IMG/VR virus record: IMGVR_UViG_3300036853_000446
Span: 62,001-126,000 of that record
DNA length: 64,000 nucleotides
Reading direction: 5' to 3' (one strand)
DNA from: a virus
Shown piece after piece: positions 46,590-59,817 of this stretch. A model generated the notes under the pieces. That model was not told where the DNA came from. It saw nothing but the letters and a program-made list of their open reading frames with translations, and ran no database searches. Made by a program: the position numbers and the translations under genes. Each line of letters opens with the position of its first letter. The first letter of the stretch is position 1.

Positions 46590-48434
46590 CTAGGTAGACA
46601 CAGACGACCTGCCCAAAAGTGCCTGCATTATCGGCAGCGCCTTGATATCCAGGTCGTGTAGCTTCGCCGCAGCCGCGGCTTCATCTTCATCGGGTTCAAT
46701 CCTAGAGATGTTCACGTCGACGAGCGTCATGAGTTCCAGGTTGATTTTGACTTGGGCAGATGCCCCCATGACGCGCTCGTACTGTCCCTTGTTCAACGAC
46801 GCGAGGCCCGAAGCGTAGACCCGCTCGACGGAGCCGTGCTCCTGGATGAGGGTTCGCAATACCTTCTTCGGCACGCGCGGGACGCCCGGCAGATTGTCAG
46901 ACTTGTCTCCGAACAACGAACGTAGATGGATCACCTTTTCCGGAGGCACCCCTAACTGATAGACCACTCCCTGCACATCGTACAGCACTTCCTTCCGACT
47001 ACCAACGGCGGGAAAGAGGAACATCGTAGATGCGGTGACCAGTTGCAGGAAATCTCTGTCCGTCGAGCAGATCAAATTCGTCTGACCCTCGAGGTCGTGA
47101 CGCACCAACGTGGCCAACACATCGTCAGCTTCTTCCTCGGGGTTCCAAGCCTGTCTCACACCGAGCAACGGCAGCAGCTCACGCAGGAACCATAACGGGT
47201 TAAACGCGACGTCACCCACAACGACAGTCAGTTCCTTACGTGGCCGGTTGCCCTTGTAATCGCCATATTGCGCACGTCGCCGTCCCGAAGATCCATCCCA
47301 TGCAACCCAGAAGCAGGCCTCCGGATAACGCTTCCTCAGCGCACCGAGGCTCCGAAGGAAGCCCAGGATCATGCCCGTCGGACGCCCCTTCGCATCGGTC
47401 AGACGTGCGATACCGGGCGCAAACGCGCAGCGGAACGCCAGGTTGTGTCCATCGATCAACACGTTCTGAATCACCGCTTCATCCCCCTTGTCGCCGCGCG
47501 CCAAGTCGCGGACTAGATCTTCGACGCTCTGACTCATGGCGCGAATGCGATCCTCGATTTCACAGAGCCGCCGATACGTCTCGAACCTCGATCGCATCCG
47601 ACTCTGTGCCTCCGCCAGGCTGGCAAAATGCACCACGTTGAAAAGGCGCTGCCCTTGAACGTGCCAGTGCACGAGCGTCTTCAGCATTCCGAAGCGCTCG
47701 ACGATCCGAGCGTGTAAGGCGCGAAGCTCTCCGCCGCGTGGCGGGTAGCCGTAGAGAAACGAGTAGAGCAGGCGACCCGACCACAGCGAGCGAGACACGA
47801 AGACGTATGCGGTGAGGATTCTGAGCACGTCGTCGATGTCGCCACGATAGCCCAGCGTCGCCTTGGCCATCTTGAACCAAGCACGCAGGTACCCGAGTCG
47901 CGCGAAATACAAACTCAAGGGCGCGCGGTCCACGACCTTCAGGGCGCTCCGGGGAAGAGTGACGATGCTCTGCTTGCTCCGCAGCTCGATGTGAACCTGG
48001 ACTTTACGGTCCTCCAGGATCTCCGTAATGACCGTCGCTTCGATGTTCTTGTACGGGCCCGAGCAAATCAGCACGCTGTCGCCCACGCCAATGTCTTGAT
48101 TGACCTCAGCCCGGAGCTTCTCTTTTAGATCCTCGATGTAGGATCCGGTAACGGTCGCTATCTGACCACCGCGTCTCAAGACAGACTGAAAGAGCCGAGT
48201 CTCTTCGAGCCGGCGGTAATCTCGATCGGTACGTTCCCGCCGGACGAAGGCGTAGCCCGGCATGAGGTAGTGGACGTCCTTGTCCTCACCGACCTGTGTC
48301 TCGATTGCCGGGAGGTAGACATCACACTTGCCCAAGATCTTCGACGCCGCGGCGAAAACGACGGCCGGCGTCTCTTTCTCTCCCGACGGCGTCAACTCGA
48401 CGACGATCCACTGCGCGCCTTGGTCAGTTGCCAT
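46590..48434 (-). CDS. Fusion of NusG-like domain with 5'-3' exonuclease (FEN/PIN), 614 aa
   Basis: One uninterrupted frame. Residues 1-170 resemble NusG/RfaH: NGN-like segment with YLMPGYAFVRR (56-66) and a KOW segment at 117-168 (GDSVLICSGPYKNIEATVI, ...RSALKVVD). Residues 170-320 are a helical connector. Residues 322-540 form a flap-type 5' nuclease: VLIDGHNLAFR (D328), FWVAWDGSSGRRRAQYGDYK (D380), EEEADDVLATL (E435, D437, D438), STDRDF (D459, D461) and FGDKSDNLPG (D510, D513), a full metal-binding set. It could remove RNA primers or process flaps, with the NusG part binding RNA polymerase. The ATG at 48434 overlaps the DnaX stop. I know of no such fusion in standard phage families, though my recall is not exhaustive. 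Confidence 0.8.
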   Translation of the reverse strand: MATDQGAQWIVVELTPSGEKETPAVVFAAASKILGKCDVYLPAIETQVGEDKDVHYLMPGYAFVRRERTDRDYRRLEETRLFQSVLRRGGQIATVTGSYIEDLKEKLRAEVNQDIGVGDSVLICSGPYKNIEATVITEILEDRKVQVHIELRSKQSIVTLPRSALKVVDRAPLSLYFARLGYLRAWFKMAKATLGYRGDIDDVLRILTAYVFVSRSLWSGRLLYSFLYGYPPRGGELRALHARIVERFGMLKTLVHWHVQGQRLFNVVHFASLAEAQSRMRSRFETYRRLCEIEDRIRAMSQSVEDLVRDLARGDKGDEAVIQNVLIDGHNLAFRCAFAPGIARLTDAKGRPTGMILGFLRSLGALRKRYPEACFWVAWDGSSGRRRAQYGDYKGNRPRKELTVVVGDVAFNPLWFLRELLPLLGVRQAWNPEEEADDVLATLVRHDLEGQTNLICSTDRDFLQLVTASTMFLFPAVGSRKEVLYDVQGVVYQLGVPPEKVIHLRSLFGDKSDNLPGVPRVPKKVLRTLIQEHGSVERVYASGLASLNKGQYERVMGASAQVKINLELMTLVDVNISRIEPDEDEAAAAAKLHDLDIKALPIMQALLGRSSVST

Positions 48435-49842: not shown

Positions 49843-50352
49843 TCAATTATCTTCATTCAGGTCGACTTCGACGTTCTCCGTTTCTTCGACGGACGCACCC
49901 GTCTCCTGCCGCACGATCTCGGCGATATTCAGGCTCTGGGCGACCTGGACAAAACTCGTGAGCGACTCGTTCCAGTTGCCGTGCCGCTGCAGGATGGTCG
50001 AGAATTCCTGCACGTCGGGCTCGCGCAGCGTCCATCGATACGATCCATCCTCCTCGTCCTCCTCCCCCGAGCAGCGCTCGAGCAGGTGGTCGACGAGCGC
50101 CGTCTTCTGGTCGTCGGTCAATACCAGCCACTTCGGCTCGGCGACTTCGATGCAGAAATCGAGTTCCGTCAGGCTTTCCCATCGTCCCGAGACCTTGACG
50201 GCTTTGCCGAGCAACTCGCGGCCCCCCTTCTTGGGCACGCGATCGATGAACACGTACGCGATTCGCGCGGTCGCGAGTTCAGGGTGATAGGTCGCCATGA
50301 GGCTCTGGGCTACGGCTTGAACGGACTCTGCCGGCGAGTACTCTGCGGACAT
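49843..50352 (-). CDS. Degenerate phage metallopeptidase-like protein, 169 aa
   Basis: Residues 3-95 match the putative phage metallopeptidase family (PhageMetallopep, PF18894 by recall): SPAESVQAVAQSL, HPELATARIAYVF, GKAVKVSG, then LDFCIEVAEPKW and ALVDHLLERC. The family normally ends in HELCH; here the same place reads HLLER, so the Glu and second His are lost and the peptidase is probably inactive. ATG at 50352 (GGAG upstream) is the start; the frame continues to 50451 but overlaps the primase stop at 50399. The C-terminal 60 residues are acidic. Confidence 0.6.
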   Translation of the reverse strand: MSAEYSPAESVQAVAQSLMATYHPELATARIAYVFIDRVPKKGGRELLGKAVKVSGRWESLTELDFCIEVAEPKWLVLTDDQKTALVDHLLERCSGEEDEEDGSYRWTLREPDVQEFSTILQRHGNWNESLTSFVQVAQSLNIAEIVRQETGASVEETENVEVDLNEDN

Positions 50353-50398
50353 ATGAGCTTCATCTCCATTTGGGTCGAATATGCATTCCCACGCCTCT

Positions 50399-51103
50399 TT
50401 AGGCGCAACAACGCTTGATGAGGGCGCCCAAACGTTGGTCGCCCCAAACACTCCACAGCTCGTTCGGGTCCTTCGTATTGTGGCCCGAAGGCATGGGAAC
50501 CCGAGGGAACCTGACGATCTTGATCTTGAATTGGTCGCTCAATTCGCGCGCGATATCGTGAGCAACTTTATAGCCTGTCGTATCCATGTCATAAGCAACG
50601 AAGATGGTTCGTGCGACCCTGCGTAGGACTCGCCGCAGCTGGCTTGATACACCGGCGTGAAGCGTCGAGATGACATTCGGCACGTGACGTTGAATCGGGC
50701 ACAAATCGAAAACGCCCTCGACGAGCCAAACCTCTTCGGTCTCCCAAACGCTCGCCATGGCTTGGGCCAAGCCAAAGAATGCGGGCTCTTCTTTCGACTC
50801 GAAATAGTCGAGGTACCCTTTGATCTTCGGCTCGCGATCCCTAAACTGGAGCCCCAACACGACGCCGAGCGTGCTCGTCAGGGGGAAAACCAAGGGATCT
50901 TTGAACTGCTTTCTGTGGGCCGACCACCACGTGACAAATCGAGGATCACAACCAAGCCCCGTCGGAAGGCGGGCCCCCGGCAGGATCCCTATGTCGAAGG
51001 CGTCGATTTGTTCGTCGCTCACCCCGCGGCGCCAGAGCGCTTCTCGACTCTCGGCGACCATTTGCGCGTGCGCCGTCCCGACCATTTCCGTCATCCAGCT
51101 CAC
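50399..51103 (-). CDS. TOPRIM-domain DNA primase (catalytic core only), 234 aa
   Basis: TOPRIM fold: WLVEGVFDL at 126-134 (E129), then TIFVAYDMDTTGYKVAHDIA at 167-186 (D172, D174). The N-terminal 100 residues (AHRKQFKDPLVFPLTSTLG) form the RNAP-like basic subdomain of DnaG. There is no zinc-binding N-terminal domain and no helicase-binding C-terminus, so the zinc ribbon must be elsewhere or absent. It starts at GTG 51103, overlapping the stop of the gene upstream (GTGA). It likely lays primers for lagging-strand synthesis. Confidence 0.8.
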   Translation of the reverse strand: MSWMTEMVGTAHAQMVAESREALWRRGVSDEQIDAFDIGILPGARLPTGLGCDPRFVTWWSAHRKQFKDPLVFPLTSTLGVVLGLQFRDREPKIKGYLDYFESKEEPAFFGLAQAMASVWETEEVWLVEGVFDLCPIQRHVPNVISTLHAGVSSQLRRVLRRVARTIFVAYDMDTTGYKVAHDIARELSDQFKIKIVRFPRVPMPSGHNTKDPNELWSVWGDQRLGALIKRCCA

Positions 51104-51711: not shown

Positions 51712-52258
51712 CTAGGGGTGGTAAGTACACCACCGCGTCTGGAGTATTTTCAGGCGAGGCCGGCGAGAGGAATCGAACAATCCTCCGCCACAGGCGTTCG
51801 AACACCGAGATCCCCTCGACCACCTCCAACCGGCCGCCCCTGACCCACAGCAGAATATGAGCTGCGGGCAAATGTGCCTCGATCCACCTCGGATCGCCCA
51901 AGTTCGCAACGAACTCCGCGTAAACGTCCGCCCTCGTCTGCTTGTACGTGAAATAGGGGCAACGTTGAGCGTCGAGCGGCTCCTCGCAGACGTTCCCGTT
52001 CCAAGTCTCCGGGTCTTCCGAGCCCAACATGCACAGGCCAATGGTTTGCGCCACGGGCAGCGCCACATCATCCTCGACCCCCACCGAGATCCGGTTGTAA
52101 GAGTCGTTCGGTTCTCCGTAGATGGTGCGCCGGTGATCCAGCGGGTGTCGACGATTGTGTATGCACAGGTGCGGCAGTATCTCCCGCGTCAGCCGCTTCC
52201 GCAGTTCGGCAACCACGATGGCGCGCAGTCGATCCTCGATTTCCGCGTCCGACCTCAC
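51647..52258 (-). CDS. Cys-rich conserved-type protein, 203 aa
   Basis: Cys and His residues in HLCIHNRRHPLD, TIGLCMLGSED and VCEEPLDAQRCPYF give a likely zinc or iron-sulphur site. The N-terminus (MRSDAEIEDRLRAIVVAELR) is helical; a middle Asn/Tyr/Arg-rich stretch (EPNDSYNRISVG) and a C-terminal Trp/Arg region (ERLWRRIVRFLSPAS) follow. The GTG start at 52258 overlaps the stop of the Rad50-like half (GTGA), so the two are co-translated. Function unknown. Confidence 0.55.
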   Translation of the reverse strand: MRSDAEIEDRLRAIVVAELRKRLTREILPHLCIHNRRHPLDHRRTIYGEPNDSYNRISVGVEDDVALPVAQTIGLCMLGSEDPETWNGNVCEEPLDAQRCPYFTYKQTRADVYAEFVANLGDPRWIEAHLPAAHILLWVRGGRLEVVEGISVFERLWRRIVRFLSPASPENTPDAVVYLPPLDALPEEDRARVPIGYGASPAA

Positions 52259-52956
52259 GGTCTCACCTTGCTCTTACGGTCGGCCGCGACCTGTTTGACG
52301 CGCAGCGCGCGCTGACCGCCGACGGCCTCTTCGTGACTCTCGTAGGCAAGGTCGGAATGGTCGCAGTACGCGGACTTATGGGTGATCAACAAGAAATGAA
52401 GATTCATACTTTGGGCCAATGCCTTGAGGAACTTCCCGGTCGGCGCGATGTACTCGTCCGAGACCGCCAACAGCGTCTCGTCCAGGACGAGGAAAGGGAG
52501 GCGCTCGAGCTTCAACAGAGTCAAAACACGAAGGAGCAGCGCGATGACACTCGACGCGCCCCCGCCGAAGCTCTCGAGCGGTCGACCCCGAACCGCCAGG
52601 GGGTCATCCGTGCCCCCCTGCCGCAGCTGAAACTCGATCGCGACCTTGTTGTATTTCGTCTCGATGTCCGACTCGAAATGCAAATCCTGGTCGAAGAATA
52701 TGGTTTGCAGTCCGTCCGTCACGATCGACTCCAGCGTTCTGACCTGCTTGACCACCAGCTGATCCATCAGGGCTCTAAAGAGTTCCTCGACTTTGAGTAG
52801 TTTCTCGACATCGCTCGTCAGCTTCTCGATCTCCGACGCCTTTTGCGTCCTATCCGCCAGCAGATGGTCTCGAAGAACCTCCACCTTCGCGGTTCGACGG
52901 CACAGCACGGCGAGCCGATCTATTGCTTCGACGGGACGTACCGCATTGCTCGACAT
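52255..52956 (-). CDS. Rad50/SbcC C-terminal half
   Basis: This 233-residue protein contains only the second half of a Rad50-type ATPase: a short coiled-coil arm (KASEIEKLTSDVEKLLKVEE), the ABC signature SFGGGASS at 129-136, Walker B FLVLDE at 155-160 with D-loop, and the H-loop LLITH (His193). It has no Walker A; that lies in the separate gene at 56326-57699. The two must pair to form an active ATPase, with Mre11/SbcD nearby. The ATG at 52956 has AAAAGG upstream and overlaps the clamp stop by 37 nt. Confidence 0.85.
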   Translation of the reverse strand: MSSNAVRPVEAIDRLAVLCRRTAKVEVLRDHLLADRTQKASEIEKLTSDVEKLLKVEELFRALMDQLVVKQVRTLESIVTDGLQTIFFDQDLHFESDIETKYNKVAIEFQLRQGGTDDPLAVRGRPLESFGGGASSVIALLLRVLTLLKLERLPFLVLDETLLAVSDEYIAPTGKFLKALAQSMNLHFLLITHKSAYCDHSDLAYESHEEAVGGQRALRVKQVAADRKSKVRP

Positions 52957-54179
52957 GCGTAGCCCTTTTGATCGACCGCGGGTTTCTCTACGTATTTCCC
53001 GCTCTCGTCGATGAAATAGTCCTCAATCACGCGAAACAAATGCTGCTTCGACTTTTTGACCTGAGCGATGCCCAGCATGACGTCGCGAGGATGCTTCGTC
53101 GCCTCGACGAGCTGGATCATCCAGTCGAGGTTGATGTGGAATTGGACGTCCTCCGTCTTGCTGAGGCTCCCAGAGCCCCAACAGCCCGGTTCACCCTCGA
53201 CGAGCGGCGTGACCGCCAACGGCAAAGACTCAATCTCGCCCCCCAAGGTGTTGCTCGCGACGACCGTCAGCAGGCACGTCGTGTGGTCGTAACGAACGAA
53301 CGCCTTGTTTTTATCCGCAGGCAAGGTGCTGCGAACGTATTTGAGTTCCTTCTCGAGGCTCGCCCGGCCGATCCTAAAGATATGATTGTCGAGCGCGAGA
53401 CCGTAATATCCGTATTTACTTCCGGCGTAGTCTTGGTTCGACCAACCGAGCACCTGCTCGGTCGAATTCATGAAATACGTCGAATTCTCGCTATTGTAGA
53501 CGTCGATGGTACCCGGCGATTTAGACAAGAACGACAGCAGCAGCGGGATCCGCGTACCGTAAACGAAGAGCGGCTTTCCCTCCAGCTCGGGACTGTAGAA
53601 ATAGCTCGTTCGACTCGTCGAGTGCCCCAGCATGTATCCGTTCCCATCGGCCTCGTCCGCGCCGAATAGCTGAACGTTGAGAAACTCTGGCTTCGCTAGC
53701 GCATCCTTCGGTTCCGCCAAGTAGGGTCGCGTCATGTTCAGAGCTTCCTTCAAGAGGACGCTGGGGAACGTGGCGACTTTCTTGGCGTTGCTGAAATCTG
53801 CGTCGAGCGCCTTGAGCGCCTTCGCGGTGAACGTGATGATCTTGTGAACACCCCCCTTGGCGCCGCCGGTGTCTCGTCGACACCAAACGACGTCAGCGCC
53901 GCCCTCCTCTCCGGACTCGAATTCGACCCATCCCTCGACGTAGCGCAGGTCCCCTTGTGGTCCCGTCGGAAAGACGAAGGCCCCTTCGCCCTCGACGTCA
54001 AACACGGGAATTGGCACGCGAAAGCGCTGGTGGCCGTCTTCGGAATACAGGTAGCAATGCTCGCCGCGCACGACGCAGAGATAGCCCGAGCTGCCTCGTG
54101 CATCGATGGAGGTCGGCGTGATCGACGAAACCAGGGCCAGCGCCGTGGTCCAGTCCTGTGTCAAAACTTTAAACTTCAT
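52920..54179 (-). CDS. Sliding clamp, DnaN-like
   Basis: The 419-residue protein follows the beta-clamp layout of three similar domains: KFKVLTQDWTTALALVSSI at the start, then SVLLKEALNMTRPYL, a third-domain FHINLDWMIQLVEATKH, and a C-terminal KGYACRAMRYVPSKQ that resembles the final M-P-M-R-L strand of DnaN. It ties the polymerase to DNA and is loaded by the DnaX-like protein. Identity is low, so this is a family-level call. Start ATG at 54179 with GAGG upstream. Confidence 0.65.
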   Translation of the reverse strand: MKFKVLTQDWTTALALVSSITPTSIDARGSSGYLCVVRGEHCYLYSEDGHQRFRVPIPVFDVEGEGAFVFPTGPQGDLRYVEGWVEFESGEEGGADVVWCRRDTGGAKGGVHKIITFTAKALKALDADFSNAKKVATFPSVLLKEALNMTRPYLAEPKDALAKPEFLNVQLFGADEADGNGYMLGHSTSRTSYFYSPELEGKPLFVYGTRIPLLLSFLSKSPGTIDVYNSENSTYFMNSTEQVLGWSNQDYAGSKYGYYGLALDNHIFRIGRASLEKELKYVRSTLPADKNKAFVRYDHTTCLLTVVASNTLGGEIESLPLAVTPLVEGEPGCWGSGSLSKTEDVQFHINLDWMIQLVEATKHPRDVMLGIAQVKKSKQHLFRVIEDYFIDESGKYVEKPAVDQKGYACRAMRYVPSKQ

Positions 54180-54188
54180 GACAGTGCC

Positions 54189-54461
54189 TCACTTTTCGTA
54201 TTCGTCTTGGGCCCGCTCGACCACGGCCAACTCGGTGTCGAATTTCGTGATGAGTTCTTCCAACTCTTTCTCCAGACGAGCGCGCTCCTCGCGGAGAGTT
54301 TTCGGATCGAACCCCGCGGCTTCGATCTCTTGTTTCAACCGCAGCAGTTCCTGCTTTTTCTCCTCCATGACCCCTTGGAGCTTGGACTGCTTGGTCGAGG
54401 CTGCGGTGTGGCGACGAGTGAGGTCCTCCACGCGCGCTTGGATCTGTTCTAAGGTTGCCAT
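54189..54461 (-). CDS. Small coiled-coil protein, 90 aa
   Basis: Almost entirely helical with heptads (MATLEQIQARVEDLTRRHTA, then RLEKELEELITKFDTEL). ATG at 54461 has AAAGGA 12 nt upstream. It sits between the Cas4-like nuclease and the clamp and may be an adaptor of the Rad50-like complex. No other function is suggested by the sequence. Confidence 0.55.
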   Translation of the reverse strand: MATLEQIQARVEDLTRRHTAASTKQSKLQGVMEEKKQELLRLKQEIEAAGFDPKTLREERARLEKELEELITKFDTELAVVERAQDEYEK

Positions 54462-55364
54462 CTATTTTTTGGTCCTTTGACTCTCTTTGAGGACAACGGC
54501 GAGGCCCTCGGGGCAAGCCTCTTGCGTCGCATACGGGCAAAACCGGCAGTTCGCGATCCGAGCCGAAGGTTCAAACACGGATTTGATGAGCGGGAGATGC
54601 TTTTGCTCCCCCACCCTTTTCGAATCCGCCTCGAGTTCATGCATGAATTGGACAACGTTGGTCTTCAGCTCGTCGATGTCGGTCTGGTTGCACGTACACC
54701 AGTCGATGTTGGACGGCGGATCGAAATGCCAATAAACGAAGGCCGTCCGATCCGGCAGGCGGCCTTGCTTCTCGCGATACAGCATCGAGTACCACTGCAG
54801 CTGAAGCTCGTCGGTGTAGCGGTCACGCTTTCGGGAGCCCTTTCCGTCGATGATGACGAGGTCACGGTCCGGCGGGATGCGAAGCATGACGAAATCAGCG
54901 CGTCCCCCAACGCGATGACCCGAGATGTCGGAGTCGAGCTTCAGCTCGGCCTGGACGTTCCTTCCGATGAGCCGATGGGTCTTGATCGTCGCGAGGCCGC
55001 GAGGCACTGCGGCGTGAACGTCCGAGACGAGTTCGTCTCGCGAAGCGTACAGGTTTTCCCGCCAGACGATGGTTCCTGCAGCGCGGAGCCTTCCCGGCTT
55101 CTGCTCCTCGTCGAGGACGGTGTCGACCATGGTCTCGACCATCGCCGTCATGATGGCGCTCGCGCCGGGATGCCTCCAGAGTCGATCCCGGTAGAACGCC
55201 TCGAATAGACGGCCGACGACCGTACCGTAGACCGAGCCCAAGCGGTCTTCCGGCTTTTCGGGCGGCGTCCTGTTGATGTACGAGTTCCAATATTTGTAGC
55301 GGCAGCCTTTGGCGCACTGATAGCCCGAGTATGAAAGGTACACGCGAGCACATACACCTCTCAA
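54462..55364 (-). CDS. Cas4/RecB-type PD-(D/E)XK nuclease with iron-sulphur cysteines
   Basis: 300 residues. Nuclease core: RVGGRADFVM at 151-160 (D157), VIIDGKGS at 170-177 (D173, K175), then QLQWY with Q190/Y192. Cysteines bracket the core: C17 and C21 in QCAKGC, and C273, C276, C284 in NCRFCPYATQEAC, consistent with a 4Fe-4S cluster as in Cas4, AddB and Dna2. It may trim DNA ends with the SbcD-like nuclease and the split Rad50. The TTG at 55364 overlaps the SbcD stop, though a GTG at 55343 is also possible. Confidence 0.8.
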   Translation of the reverse strand: MRGVCARVYLSYSGYQCAKGCRYKYWNSYINRTPPEKPEDRLGSVYGTVVGRLFEAFYRDRLWRHPGASAIMTAMVETMVDTVLDEEQKPGRLRAAGTIVWRENLYASRDELVSDVHAAVPRGLATIKTHRLIGRNVQAELKLDSDISGHRVGGRADFVMLRIPPDRDLVIIDGKGSRKRDRYTDELQLQWYSMLYREKQGRLPDRTAFVYWHFDPPSNIDWCTCNQTDIDELKTNVVQFMHELEADSKRVGEQKHLPLIKSVFEPSARIANCRFCPYATQEACPEGLAVVLKESQRTKK

Positions 55365-56338
55365 ACCTTCCGCAGACGCGCTTGCTGCAAATAGAAGAGC
55401 GCCAGATCGTGAATCTCTCGCGCGAAGTCCAGGCTGCCGATCGTCTCTTCGATGGACACGCCTTGCTTCGCCATGAGATCCGCCTGGATCCGCGCGACAT
55501 ACTGCTCGATGTTCGCGCTTTCCCGGTCCTGGCGAGTCTTGCGTTCGATGTCGAAAACCTCAGCGGGAGGCGCCACTTTCAAAAGGTGCGGCGTGATCGT
55601 AATGCCTTCGCTCGTCACTTCGATGAGGGCGACCTTCGGTGTCCTCGTCAGGTTCTCCTTTGAGAGTGCGCCGCGGGAGACCGCGCCCTGGTTCACGAAC
55701 CAGCGGTCGCGAATCTTGACGATGCCCTGATCCTGATGCCAATGCCCCCAACAGAAGATGTCCGGACCTCCGTCGACGATCAGCTGCTCGTACCGAAAGA
55801 CGGGCTCGCCATAAAACTCCTCGACGCTGCTCGGCGGGTTTTCGCCGGCAAGGGCGTGCACGATGGCGATGAGGACCTCTTTACCTCGCTTCCGAATGCC
55901 CTGCAGATCCTCGACCGTTCGGAACGGGCTGTAAGGCATTCCCACGACGCGAACCTCGAGATCGCCGTCTTTGAAGGTCTGATCCCGCAAATGTTCGAAG
56001 ACCCGGGCGTTGTACAGAACGCCCAACGGTTGATCCGACAACGTCTCGAGGTTGTTGTGTTTTATGTCGTGATTGCCTTCGACGCAGAAGACCTTGCAAG
56101 GGTACGCCTGATGCAGGGCCGCCACCTTGGCTACGAGACGATGCGAGTTTTGCGTCGGGGCTTTGATATGAAAGAAATCTCCCCCATCGAGAACGGCACA
56201 AGCCGAATGCGCGCGCGCCAACTCCCCGATCTGCTCGAGATTCGACCATATCTCCGCCGGGTAGTCCCCCTTCCACGACTCGGGAGAGTGCTCTGACACA
56301 TGCACGTCCGTCCGGAAGACGAAGGCTAATCTGGACAT
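55361..56338 (-). CDS. SbcD/Mre11-like nuclease
   Basis: Metallophosphoesterase of the Mre11 type, 325 residues. Metal residues: D11 and H13 in RTDVHVSEHSP, D54 in LDGGDFFH, N89/H90/D91 in EGNHD, and GHWHQD near 220. It pairs with the split Rad50 subunits to open and process double-strand ends, as T4 gp47 does with gp46. The frame continues upstream to 56383, but the ATG at 56338, overlapping the Rad50 N-half stop, is the better start. Confidence 0.88.
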   Translation of the reverse strand: MSRLAFVFRTDVHVSEHSPESWKGDYPAEIWSNLEQIGELARAHSACAVLDGGDFFHIKAPTQNSHRLVAKVAALHQAYPCKVFCVEGNHDIKHNNLETLSDQPLGVLYNARVFEHLRDQTFKDGDLEVRVVGMPYSPFRTVEDLQGIRKRGKEVLIAIVHALAGENPPSSVEEFYGEPVFRYEQLIVDGGPDIFCWGHWHQDQGIVKIRDRWFVNQGAVSRGALSKENLTRTPKVALIEVTSEGITITPHLLKVAPPAEVFDIERKTRQDRESANIEQYVARIQADLMAKQGVSIEETIGSLDFAREIHDLALFYLQQARLRKV

Positions 56339-57699
56339 GCCGCCGCGTGCTCGGGACTGATGTCTTGATGGCACGTCGGGCAAATCCCAAGGGCCGCAAA
56401 CTCAGCCAAGACAGCCCGCCCCTCCTCGACGCTCTCCGCGAGAAGCCGCTCGGCGCGTTCGAGTTCGTGCTCCAATCGGTCCTGGTGCGCGAACAGTCGA
56501 TCCGCCTTGCCGACTTTCTTGGCGAGGCTCGTCAAAGCCGCAGTGTCCGGCACCGTGAGCTTCTGGAGACGGCCCGCTCTCTCGAATACGACCTTGAGCT
56601 TTGCAAAGGCGCTCGACCAAGCCGCCAATCTCTTCAGATCATCGAACGGCTTTCGAAGACGGGCCGCAGACGGCGGAGTGACCTGGTCGACCTTCCCCAA
56701 ACGCTCGACCCAGCGCTCGCGGTCGACCACCGCCGCCTGCCATGAGCCGACCTTCCGCCACCGCTCCGCGGTCGTGGTGAGTCGACGGGAGTCAGGCAGC
56801 TCGGGCCGCAAGACGCGCTCGAGCGCCGTCACGACCCCCACGCGGGCCTGCCAATCCTCCTCCAGCCCGCACACCTGGTTGAGCCTTTCCGAGGTGGCCC
56901 GGAGAGGCTTTGCGCCGGGTATCGCGGGGGCGAGCGCGGTCCTCAGTCGGATCGCCGCCTTGGTGCCTTCCGCGGCCTCCGAAAGGAGACGGTCGGCAAG
57001 GCTGAGCCGTGCCGAAACCTCCCGTACTTTGGCGCCCTGATCCTGGAGCGCCCGCACTTTAACGAGGTGACCGTCTAGGGTGGCGTACGTCTCGAGTTGG
57101 CGTCCCAGGGTCACGACGTCAGACTCCCGCACCTTTCTCGTCGCGATGGCGGATCGACGGTCCTTCGAAACGGCCGTCATGGCCTGGTTGATGTCGTCGA
57201 GTTGACCGATGTCGCTCAGGATATCCGCGACGACGCTCCCCGAAAGATCGAGCAGGAACGGGGTCTCGAATTGACTCGAAACCTGAAGAAGCGATTGGGT
57301 CGGCCCGAGCTTGACCGGCGAGAATTGGGCACCGAGAAACTCCGGCAGTTCCATGCTCTGGCCGACCCGGTCGTAAACGGACTCGACTCCGTCCTTCCAG
57401 ACCGTGTACCGGTTGACGCCCTTGCTTCCCTTCTCCCAAAGGAACCCTTGGCCTTCGGCGAACATGAGCTTGACCGACGAGAAGCACTTGCAACTCTTGG
57501 TTCCGTTGAGGATTCTAGCGCACGAGCGCGCGTCGTGCCGTACGAAATCGGAGCCCGAACCGCCAGACAAGGCGCTCTTGAGTGCCCGCACGATCGACGA
57601 CTTACCGATGTTGGTTCTGCCAACCAACGCCGTGAAGCCCTCGATGTTGAGCTTCAAGTGGTCAATGGCCTGGAAGTTCTTGATCTCTACATCGATCAC
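56326..57699 (-). CDS. Rad50/SbcC N-terminal half ending at the zinc hook
   Basis: 457 residues. Walker A VGRTNIGKSS at 26-35 in the RecF/Rad50 context FTALVGRTNIGKSS, then a long coiled-coil arm (residues about 190-430), and the zinc hook CPTCHQD at 440-446, after which only 11 residues remain. The second coiled-coil arm and the signature and Walker B segments are missing here; they are in the gene at 52255-52956. The start GTG at 57699 overlaps the RecA stop (GTGA), so expression is coupled with RecA. The hook normally joins two Rad50 subunits through zinc. Confidence 0.88.
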   Translation of the reverse strand: MIDVEIKNFQAIDHLKLNIEGFTALVGRTNIGKSSIVRALKSALSGGSGSDFVRHDARSCARILNGTKSCKCFSSVKLMFAEGQGFLWEKGSKGVNRYTVWKDGVESVYDRVGQSMELPEFLGAQFSPVKLGPTQSLLQVSSQFETPFLLDLSGSVVADILSDIGQLDDINQAMTAVSKDRRSAIATRKVRESDVVTLGRQLETYATLDGHLVKVRALQDQGAKVREVSARLSLADRLLSEAAEGTKAAIRLRTALAPAIPGAKPLRATSERLNQVCGLEEDWQARVGVVTALERVLRPELPDSRRLTTTAERWRKVGSWQAAVVDRERWVERLGKVDQVTPPSAARLRKPFDDLKRLAAWSSAFAKLKVVFERAGRLQKLTVPDTAALTSLAKKVGKADRLFAHQDRLEHELERAERLLAESVEEGRAVLAEFAALGICPTCHQDISPEHAAACPD

Positions 57700-59126
57700 T
57701 CCCCTGCCTCGGAATCTGCCTCGGAATCTGCCTCGGAATCTGCCTCGGAATCTGCTTCAGAGTCAGTGTCAGTGTCGGACTCGATGTCGACTTCCTCGGG
57801 CATGTCTACGGTGAAATCATCGTCATCAGTTCCCATCGAACTCGAGATGAGGGCATCAACCTCGTCATCCTCGCTGACGGCCATCTCGGCCTGCGTCTCG
57901 GGGTCCACCTCTGCTTGCAGCCGAATAGACTTGAGCACGGTGACCTGCAGGGTGTCCAAGGCCGCCTTGTCACCCATCAGGAAGGCCCGGAGCTTCTCTC
58001 GACCTTGAAACTTCTGACCGGCAACCTCGAAAAAAGCCCCGGTCTTCTTGATGAGCTTGTGAGCCACGCCCGATTCGATGACCGTATAGAGATCGTCAAT
58101 CCCTTGTCCGAAACGGATGAAGATGTCCGCGGTCTGGCCCTGCTTGGCGTCGACCTTGGATTTGACCACCTTGACCTGGGTGTGGCTTCCGAAAGGAGCC
58201 TTCTTCTCCTTCCGCGTGACCGGGTCCTTGAAAACGATCCGCTCTGTCCGGATGCAGGTCGTCTGGAGCCGCAGGTACGCGAAAAACTTGAGCGCCTTGC
58301 CGCCCGCCGTCGAGTCGCCGCTCCCGCCGCCACCGTAACCCGACGTGCTGATCTGCGCCCGCGTCTGATTGATGAAGATCACGGCCGTCCCGAGCGGGTT
58401 CTTCTCGTTTGGCTTCAGCAGCCGAACGAGCTTCGGCAGCGATTGGGCGAGCTTGAGGGCGAGAACGCCGATCTTGATCGGGTCCTCGAAGCTCTTTTCC
58501 ATCTCGGCTTTTGGGACCATTGCCGCGACCGAGTCGACGACGATGAGATCAACTCCCGTCAGGAGCCCCACCCGCAACATCTCGAGCCCCTGCTCCATGT
58601 TGTCGGGCTGGTAGAGCATGAGACGTCGATGGTCGAAATTGACGCCGAGGTCTTTCGCGTACTTGTGGCTCAGGGCATGCTCGAAATCGAGGAACATGGC
58701 ACTGCCGCCCCGGCGCTGGACCTCGACGATGGCCTCGAGAGACAAAGTGGTCTTACCACTCGCCTCCGGACCATATATCTCAGTGATTCGCCCGCGCGGA
58801 TAGCCGGGACACAGAGGTCCAGACTTGTCCGGCGCAAGCACGCCGCCGATCACATGATCGATATTCATCGAGCCTGACGAGACGCAGGGCAACGGGTGTT
58901 GGTTGAGTCCGATAGGCTTCTGCCCCGTCAATTTCTCGATGGCCTTGATCGCGAGTTCGGCGTTCTTGATCGACTTCGTCGCGTCAGCCTCGCCGCCCCC
59001 GCCTCTCAACTTGGCAACCTTCTTCAGACCGGGCTTCGTCGGCTTCGCTACGGGGCCCGTACGAGATTTCCCTTTCGGAAGGGACACGGGCTCGGCCACT
59101 ACGGCATTATCGGCGCTTTCAGACAT
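57696..59126 (-). CDS. recA: RecA-type recombinase with acidic repeat tail
   Basis: Strand-exchange protein, 476 residues. Walker A GPEASGKTT at 119-127, ATP-site Walker B GVDLIVVDSVAAM at about 191-203, the L1/L2-type loop with STSGYGGGGSGDSTAGGKA, and KFFAYLRLQTTCIRTERI after it. N-terminal 60 residues are a Lys/Arg-rich extension. The C-terminus is acidic: AVSEDDEVDALISSSMGT, then DSEAD tandem repeats to the stop. It carries phage recombination-dependent replication or repair with the resolvase and Rad50/SbcD genes. Start ATG at 59126. Confidence 0.92.
   Translation of the reverse strand: MSESADNAVVAEPVSLPKGKSRTGPVAKPTKPGLKKVAKLRGGGGEADATKSIKNAELAIKAIEKLTGQKPIGLNQHPLPCVSSGSMNIDHVIGGVLAPDKSGPLCPGYPRGRITEIYGPEASGKTTLSLEAIVEVQRRGGSAMFLDFEHALSHKYAKDLGVNFDHRRLMLYQPDNMEQGLEMLRVGLLTGVDLIVVDSVAAMVPKAEMEKSFEDPIKIGVLALKLAQSLPKLVRLLKPNEKNPLGTAVIFINQTRAQISTSGYGGGGSGDSTAGGKALKFFAYLRLQTTCIRTERIVFKDPVTRKEKKAPFGSHTQVKVVKSKVDAKQGQTADIFIRFGQGIDDLYTVIESGVAHKLIKKTGAFFEVAGQKFQGREKLRAFLMGDKAALDTLQVTVLKSIRLQAEVDPETQAEMAVSEDDEVDALISSSMGTDDDDFTVDMPEEVDIESDTDTDSEADSEADSEADSEADSEAGE
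57706..57770 (-). repeat. 12-bp tandem repeat in the recA tail
   Basis: About five copies of a 12-bp unit encoding the tetrapeptide SEAD at the C-terminus of RecA, with the same unit diverging upstream. Copy number could vary between isolates. Confidence 0.85.
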
Positions 59127-59817
59127 GGGACTTACCCTTTCGAGGGTGCAGATTGATCTCGATCTCGAGGTCCTCGGGCTTCAGCGCCGAGAACCGATAG
59201 AAGCGATCCCCCTCTTTGAAGAGGATGCCTCGTTCGACCGTCTTGCCGGCGTTCTTGCCCCGGCTAAAGACGTGGATGCTGCGGAACACGTGCTCCTCAG
59301 CCGGCGTCAGATCGGGCGGCGCGATATTGCCCGCGAGCAGGTCAAAGAATCGCGCCGCCGACCTTGCGATGATGTAGGCGTCCGCCTCGTCGTTGTTCCA
59401 ACTCTTCACTCCCGTGTCCTGCCGAGCGATGTCGACCATGTCGTTTTTGTCCATGGTCCCCTGACGAACTTCAGGGTCCATCTTGGCCATCAGCTTCACG
59501 CGCAAGGGATCGAAATAGACGACGTCCTTACGGCGCAGCATCACGGCTTCATTGACGTAGAGGAACAACCCAAACAGACCCTCGGAGAATGACTCACCGA
59601 AGGGCGGAGACTCGACTCCAACGGCCTCGATCATCGGGTATTTATCGAGCACGGCGCGGACCGCCTCCCGGAGATACATGTATCGCCAGTAGAAGACGCG
59701 GGTAGCCGGCGTCGAGATCCGCCCCTTGGCAACGACCCTCTCTTTTCCCGAGACGGAACCGTCGTGAACGCACCAACCGAGCCCTCTCAGTGAGGGGTCA
59801 ATGCCAAGGGTGATCAA
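59119..59817 (-). CDS. RuvC-like Holliday junction resolvase
   Basis: Resolvase with the RuvC acidic set: D7 in TLGIDPSLRGLGW, E69 in VGVESPPFG, and D143/E144/D146 in NNDEADAYII. The 232-residue length and the G-W-C-V beta strand order match RuvC-like phage enzymes that cut branched DNA before packaging. Starts at TTG 59817 with GAAGGG upstream. Its C-terminal 80 residues (NIAPPDLTPAEEHVFRSIHV onward) are a small extra domain of unknown type. Confidence 0.9.
   Translation of the reverse strand: MITLGIDPSLRGLGWCVHDGSVSGKERVVAKGRISTPATRVFYWRYMYLREAVRAVLDKYPMIEAVGVESPPFGESFSEGLFGLFLYVNEAVMLRRKDVVYFDPLRVKLMAKMDPEVRQGTMDKNDMVDIARQDTGVKSWNNDEADAYIIARSAARFFDLLAGNIAPPDLTPAEEHVFRSIHVFSRGKNAGKTVERGILFKEGDRFYRFSALKPEDLEIEINLHPRKGKSHV

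Follow-up and report, generated by a model that had tools for sequence, protein, structure and literature searches.

We analyzed a window of 64,000 nucleotides, corresponding to bases 62001-126000 of the 407,634-base IMG/VR virus record IMGVR_UViG_3300036853_000446. One strand of this window carries a block of genes, mostly overlapping or nearly adjacent, coding in order for RuvC, RecA, the N-terminal half of Rad50 (N half), SbcD/Mre11, a Cas4-type nuclease, a small coiled-coil protein (CC), a beta clamp and the C-terminal half of Rad50 (C half). The two Rad50 genes, which an initial annotation of this DNA had read as halves of a single Rad50 head split at the zinc hook, have the following features:

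56326-57699, minus strand: Rad50 N half, 457 residues, with the N-lobe, a repeat-built arm and a C-terminal zinc hook (phrog_16465)
57598-57621, minus strand: Walker A motif GRTNIGKS, residues 27-34 of the N half; G27, G32 and K33 present in all 50 aligned N halves
56560-56931, minus strand: three tandem arm units of ~41 residues each, approximately residues 257-380 of the N half (lag 41, z 7.5), with helices at 264-296, 304-334 and 345-376
56371-56382, minus strand: zinc hook CPTC, residues 440-443 of the N half, followed by 14 residues and the stop; matches the hook structures 1l8d/6zff
52255-52956, minus strand: Rad50 C half, 233 residues, with arm helix, signature, Walker B and H-loop (phrog_15167, 57/57)
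52699-52935, minus strand: single arm helix, residues 8-86 of the C half, with an AlphaFold2 predicted local distance difference test score (pLDDT) of about 97
52558-52569, minus strand: degenerate ATP-binding cassette (ABC) signature FGGG, residues 130-133 of the C half; G131 in 57/58 and G132 in 58/58 homologs
52477-52491, minus strand: Walker B motif LVLDE, residues 156-160 of the C half; D159 and E160 in 58/58
52378-52383, minus strand: H-loop TH, residues 192-193 of the C half; H193 in 55/58

The catalytic motifs of Rad50 are thus divided between the two genes. For the N half, described in the initial annotation as a Walker A motif, one arm and a CPTC hook after which the chain ends, both coordinates and motifs were correct. 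The hook is strongly conserved in the 50 aligned N halves (C440 in all 50, P441 and C443 in 49 each), and in every one of them the chain ends 3-21 residues past CPxC; the Q-loop glutamine Q143 is also invariant. A third invariant cysteine after the hook, noticed in three sequences, is not general, and further Cys or His residues occur in only 36 of the 50 tails. The C half lacks Walker A, as had been stated, and possesses the signature, Walker B and H-loop, with the refinement that its signature is degenerate. Its proposed return arm is present, but as one 79-residue helix, far below the ~267 residues of the N arm.

Profile and structure comparisons connect both halves to Rad50. Searched against PDB, the N-half profile matched Rad50 5f3w at 5e-10, outranked by one RecN entry alone, and its last 60 positions matched the Rad50 hook structures 1l8d and 6zff; Foldseek with the N-half model ranked Rad50 first. 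For the C-half profile the first 11 matches were all Rad50 (best 3qkr_B, 5e-14), and Foldseek returned SMC and Rad50 C-lobes, with an SMC head as the top match. Single-sequence searches of both halves gave weak matches, to RecN and SMC. The N half of the window used alone against viral contigs, and broad alignments used against genome contigs, returned no matches. N-half matches in Parabacteroides phages fall outside the split-Rad50 N-half family and lack a hook.

The split extends well beyond this virus. A four-sequence C-half alignment was used in a single scan of 2.9 million viral contigs, with patterns also able to match a full-length protein of the split-Rad50 family; it identified 82 relatives, and we retained 80 loci. 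The set grew to 97 C-half loci, some near-identical, once public phages and prophages were included (Sutcliffiella, Brevibacillus, Paenibacillus, Thermoactinomyces and others). Both halves lie inside the stretch in 81 of the 97, always as separate frames, and no open frame with both lobes was found in any of the 97. A Mre11 gene is present in 80 of the 81 loci carrying both halves. With an N-half model we recovered 66 distinct N halves, with the break at the same place. The stretch lacks an N half in 16 records; 9 of these have it elsewhere, and the remaining 7 are fragments of 16-91 kilobases (kb). Where the two halves share a single contig (8 records), 34-108 kb separates them; in Tunturiibacter phage Tunturi_5 they lie on opposite strands, with ~108 kb between them. 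These data confirm that numerous bacterial viruses, some of them very large, encode the DNA-repair motor Rad50 as two proteins, with the cut at the zinc hook. Support for reading the two genes as halves of one Rad50 head comes from complementary, invariant motifs in 50-58 aligned homologs, from co-occurrence in 81 loci and 9 unlinked records, from the matches to Rad50 structures, from the adjacent Mre11 and from the lack of any full-length Rad50 in the genome. In Microcystis phage Mvi-JY20 (L098, 3653-6480), an N half, Mre11, CC and C half, annotated as hypothetical proteins, form a four-gene cassette with a RecA-like gene upstream.

A second full-length Rad50 elsewhere in the genome, which the initial annotation held would speak against the split, was searched for and not found. 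A single C half was identified in the source genome, where no SbcC, SMC or full-length Rad50 was detected. In 22 other virus records bearing the split, significant SbcC-model matches occurred only in frames of at most 458 residues, that is, N halves, so that no full-length SbcC was found in the 23 split-bearing virus records searched, source record included. A candidate second Rad50 at 366.9 kb of the genome, the sole remaining P-loop match, is a ClpX-like protein by its sequence.

The arms of the two halves differ markedly in architecture. In the AlphaFold2 model of the N half, arm helices span residues 167-205 and 208-256, followed by three shorter helical units and by a helix at 386-437 leading up to the hook, the distal part being of low confidence. 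The distal arm is repetitive: residues 41 apart are similar, with z of 7.5 in the window and 12.2 in the relative L088, and in other groups the spacing is 44-47. Within the clade of the window, nearly all listed pairs differ in N-arm length by 41 or 82 residues, with one pair at 39. Across 37 loci the N arm measures 140-343 residues versus 73-105 for the C arm, and the two lengths are not correlated (Spearman -0.05). Since the N arm of this clade varies in 41-residue steps against a constant C arm, the match in arm length that ordinary Rad50 needs is absent. This uncoupling is the most unusual feature of the split Rad50. The initial annotation had not anticipated the breadth of the split, the constant presence of CC, or a repeat-array N arm with no length match in the C arm.

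The other genes of the block, on either side of the N half and between the halves, are as follows:

59119-59817, minus strand: RuvC-like Holliday junction resolvase, a conserved neighbor in the same block (phrog_159, 3.1e-16)
57696-59126, minus strand: RecA/UvsX recombinase, also a conserved neighbor in the same block (PF00154, 1.8e-56)
55361-56338, minus strand: SbcD/Mre11-like nuclease (PF00149, 1.2e-9; TIGR00619 sbcd, 4.8e-7)
54462-55364, minus strand: Cas4/AddB-type PD-(D/E)XK nuclease with iron-sulfur-type cysteines (PF12705, 2.2e-19)
54189-54461, minus strand: small coiled-coil protein CC, 90 residues, helix-GxDP-helix by alignment; candidate third subunit
52920-54179, minus strand: beta sliding clamp (profile versus PDB, 3.9e-38)

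SbcD, a Cas4-like iron-sulfur nuclease, a small coiled coil and a sliding clamp had all been placed between the halves, and these are the genes that lie there. The SbcD/Mre11-like reading frame is open from TTG 56383, with ATG 56338 as the likely start. The Cas4-type nuclease has the pattern CxxC-x7-C in the window, and CxxC-x(3-8)-C in 46 of 47 relatives.

A search for this gene order in relatives, as suggested in the initial annotation, showed that it recurs across divergent phages. We found the order RuvC-RecA-N-Mre11-Cas4-CC-clamp-C in 32 loci, among them that of the divergent 485-kb phage LR745208; in 12 more, the stretch lacks the first gene or the first two but otherwise keeps this order. 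Bacillota phages and prophages instead show N-CC-C-Mre11 (22 loci) or Mre11-N-CC-C (5 loci), with Cas4 and clamp not nearby. At some loci the halves have an AP2-type or HNH gene between them. The conserved order may reflect a physically organized recombination complex, as initially suggested. Variants of the arrangement were also seen: in L041, L043 and L044 the Mre11-Cas4-CC-clamp segment is inverted relative to the C half, with the N half ~40 kb off in the record of L043, and in the huge phage LR745208 a thymidylate-synthase-like gene (L004, 7589-8620) lies between RecA and the Rad50 N half.

CC was present in all 81 loci with both halves, in 77 by hidden Markov model (HMM) and in 4 by eye (L022, L023, L056 and L098). 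Residue P53 is invariant in its alignment. Because it accompanies the split Rad50 across differing gene arrangements, CC is probably a third subunit. With an initial HMM, CC seemed to be missing from loci with short N arms, but inspection showed that these carry a divergent CC. Homology of CC to the SbcC return arm, prompted by a phrog_77 match at 698-800, is unsupported: the CC profile could not be placed specifically on either E. coli SbcC or T4 gp46. We found no description of CC in the searchable literature.

The split pair shares with archaeal, eukaryotic and E. coli Rad50/SbcC the N-lobe (Walker A and Q-loop) and C-lobe motifs, the CxxC hook, here at the end of the N half (49/50), and a Mre11/SbcD gene nearby. 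It differs in its two genes, in a hook at the chain end, in uncoupled arm lengths, in a degenerate signature and in a constant extra coiled-coil gene; in E. coli SbcC, the hook is mid-chain, at residue 506 of 1048. The split Rad50 would work like Rad50, yet it departs from two structural features of the family, namely both lobes and arms in one chain and antiparallel arms of matched length. T4 gp46/gp47 is likewise a phage-encoded Rad50-Mre11 pair acting in replication and recombination, but gp46 is one 560-residue chain with the hook at residue 288, and C-lobe similarity between the split C half and gp46 was not detectable (C-half HMM, 3.3 bits). A precedent for a two-chain head is given by PDB entries 1f2t, 1ii8 and 3qkr, which list the Rad50 N and C portions as separate chains (_A and _B) of one ABC head. 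These are laboratory-made constructs and lack the hook or full arms, whereas in the phages the separation is natural. Mimivirus R555 is another viral rearrangement of the Mre11-Rad50 gene layout, although there the two subunits are fused, the opposite of a split (PMC3175470).

In PHROGs the halves are filed as unconnected half-length families, phrog_16465 ("exonuclease"; 50/50 members are N halves) and phrog_15167 ("ATPase"; 57/57 are C halves), and no link between them is stated in searchable material. A review of 224 jumbo phages presents SbcC/SbcD as near-universal; no split is mentioned in the passages located there on SbcC or Rad50 (PMC7824862). SbcC/Rad50 is not mentioned in the main text of the vB_BboS-125 and Tunturi phage papers, and a search of open-access full texts, with subscription papers and preprints outside it, found no description of a split Rad50.

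We suggest, from motif complementarity and genomic context, that the two genes very probably encode halves of one Rad50, assembling into one head that acts with Mre11 in recombination. The N half would give Walker A and the Q-loop, and the C half the signature, Walker B and H-loop, to a single ABC head, as suggested by complementary and invariant motifs and by the Rad50 crystal structures listed as separate chains. The 79-residue helix of the C half (8-86) may pair with N-half residues ~167-256, the first arm helices, near the head, given that their lengths match. Past this paired part, the N chain would run alone through zero to four repeat units up to the C-terminal zinc hook. Conservation of CPxC suggests that the hook would dimerize two complexes through zinc, and a minimal hook is a 14-residue CxxC hairpin (PMC9569753), making a hook near the chain end chemically plausible. 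Together with Mre11/SbcD, the complex would form an ATP-gated nuclease and end tether, and the ends may be passed to the adjacent Cas4-type nuclease, RecA, RuvC and clamp for recombination-dependent phage genome replication, a role in line with gene order and known Mre11-Rad50 biology. CC perhaps buttresses the distal, unpaired N arm as the third subunit, a suggestion that we regard as evenly balanced. More tentatively, the whole could be a three-piece Rad50, in which a modular N arm of ~41-47-residue helical units grows and shrinks by whole units and is braced by copies of CC instead of a return arm, so that the ring would open between chains and its reach would be tuned per phage.

Several observations weigh against this proposal. 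The AlphaFold2 model of the N half is only moderate (pLDDT 77; predicted template modeling score 0.41), with the distal arm at 50-60 in places. The C-half signature reads x-GG-[GAS] rather than LSGGE, the canonical Ser and Glu being missing. Microbacterium phage Magritte gp155 (L095, 4001-5053) is a clear 350-residue N half without CPxC; the hook is thus not universal, and a hookless split Rad50 exists. The role of CC as third subunit rests on neighborhood, and its profile does not specifically match the return arm of SbcC.

Among other explanations, the C-terminal CPxC could be an intrachain zinc knuckle that does not join two complexes. This is unlikely: the additional Cys or His in 36 of 50 tails and the lack of a return arm after the hook would fit a knuckle, but 14 of 50 tails have no such residue while CPxC is nearly invariant, and the chain end matches Rad50 hook structures. 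Separate partners for each half, the one perhaps acting as a hook-bearing ATP binder and the other as an SMC-like C-lobe regulator, would account for the unlinked genes in some phages and for the distinct "exonuclease" and "ATPase" families of PHROGs; strict co-occurrence, complementary catalytic motifs and the lack of a full-length alternative partner in 23 virus records make such non-assembly quite improbable. An SMC/RecN-like complex for DNA tethering or compaction, rather than a Mre11-Rad50 nuclease, might be suspected from the single-sequence matches to RecN and SMC and from the SMC head as top Foldseek match of the C half, but we consider it very unlikely given the zinc hook, Mre11 in 80/81 loci, and profiles favoring Rad50 for both halves. 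Finally, although introns, inteins and homing endonucleases are common in phages and an AP2-type or HNH gene separates the halves in some loci, one ordinary Rad50 gene broken by sequencing error, frameshift, pseudogenization, intron or intein can be dismissed, since the relatives refute it with the same break in 66 distinct N halves, several conserved genes or 34-108 kb between the halves, and an N-half end, 3-21 residues past the hook, too short for an intein.

Rad50 is held to need a single chain that reaches the hook and then returns, the return arm relaying hook-to-head signals. This textbook rule fails in a large and diverse group of phages, in which the chain breaks exactly at the hook and the N arm varies without the C arm. 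The split Rad50 lets one test, in a natural system, whether hook dimerization and hook-to-head signaling depend on a return arm, whether the ring can open between chains, and what role CC plays. It also links two unconnected phage families and would correct the annotation of many phages.

Two further observations concern the window outside the block. A 614-residue frame at 46590-48434 (minus strand) joins a NusG/KOW-like N-terminus to a FEN-like 5'-3' exonuclease C-terminus, an unusual fusion of transcription factor and nuclease. At 49843-50451 (minus strand) lies a putative phage metallopeptidase (PF18894, 5e-26), adjoining a Toprim-domain protein at 50399-51103.

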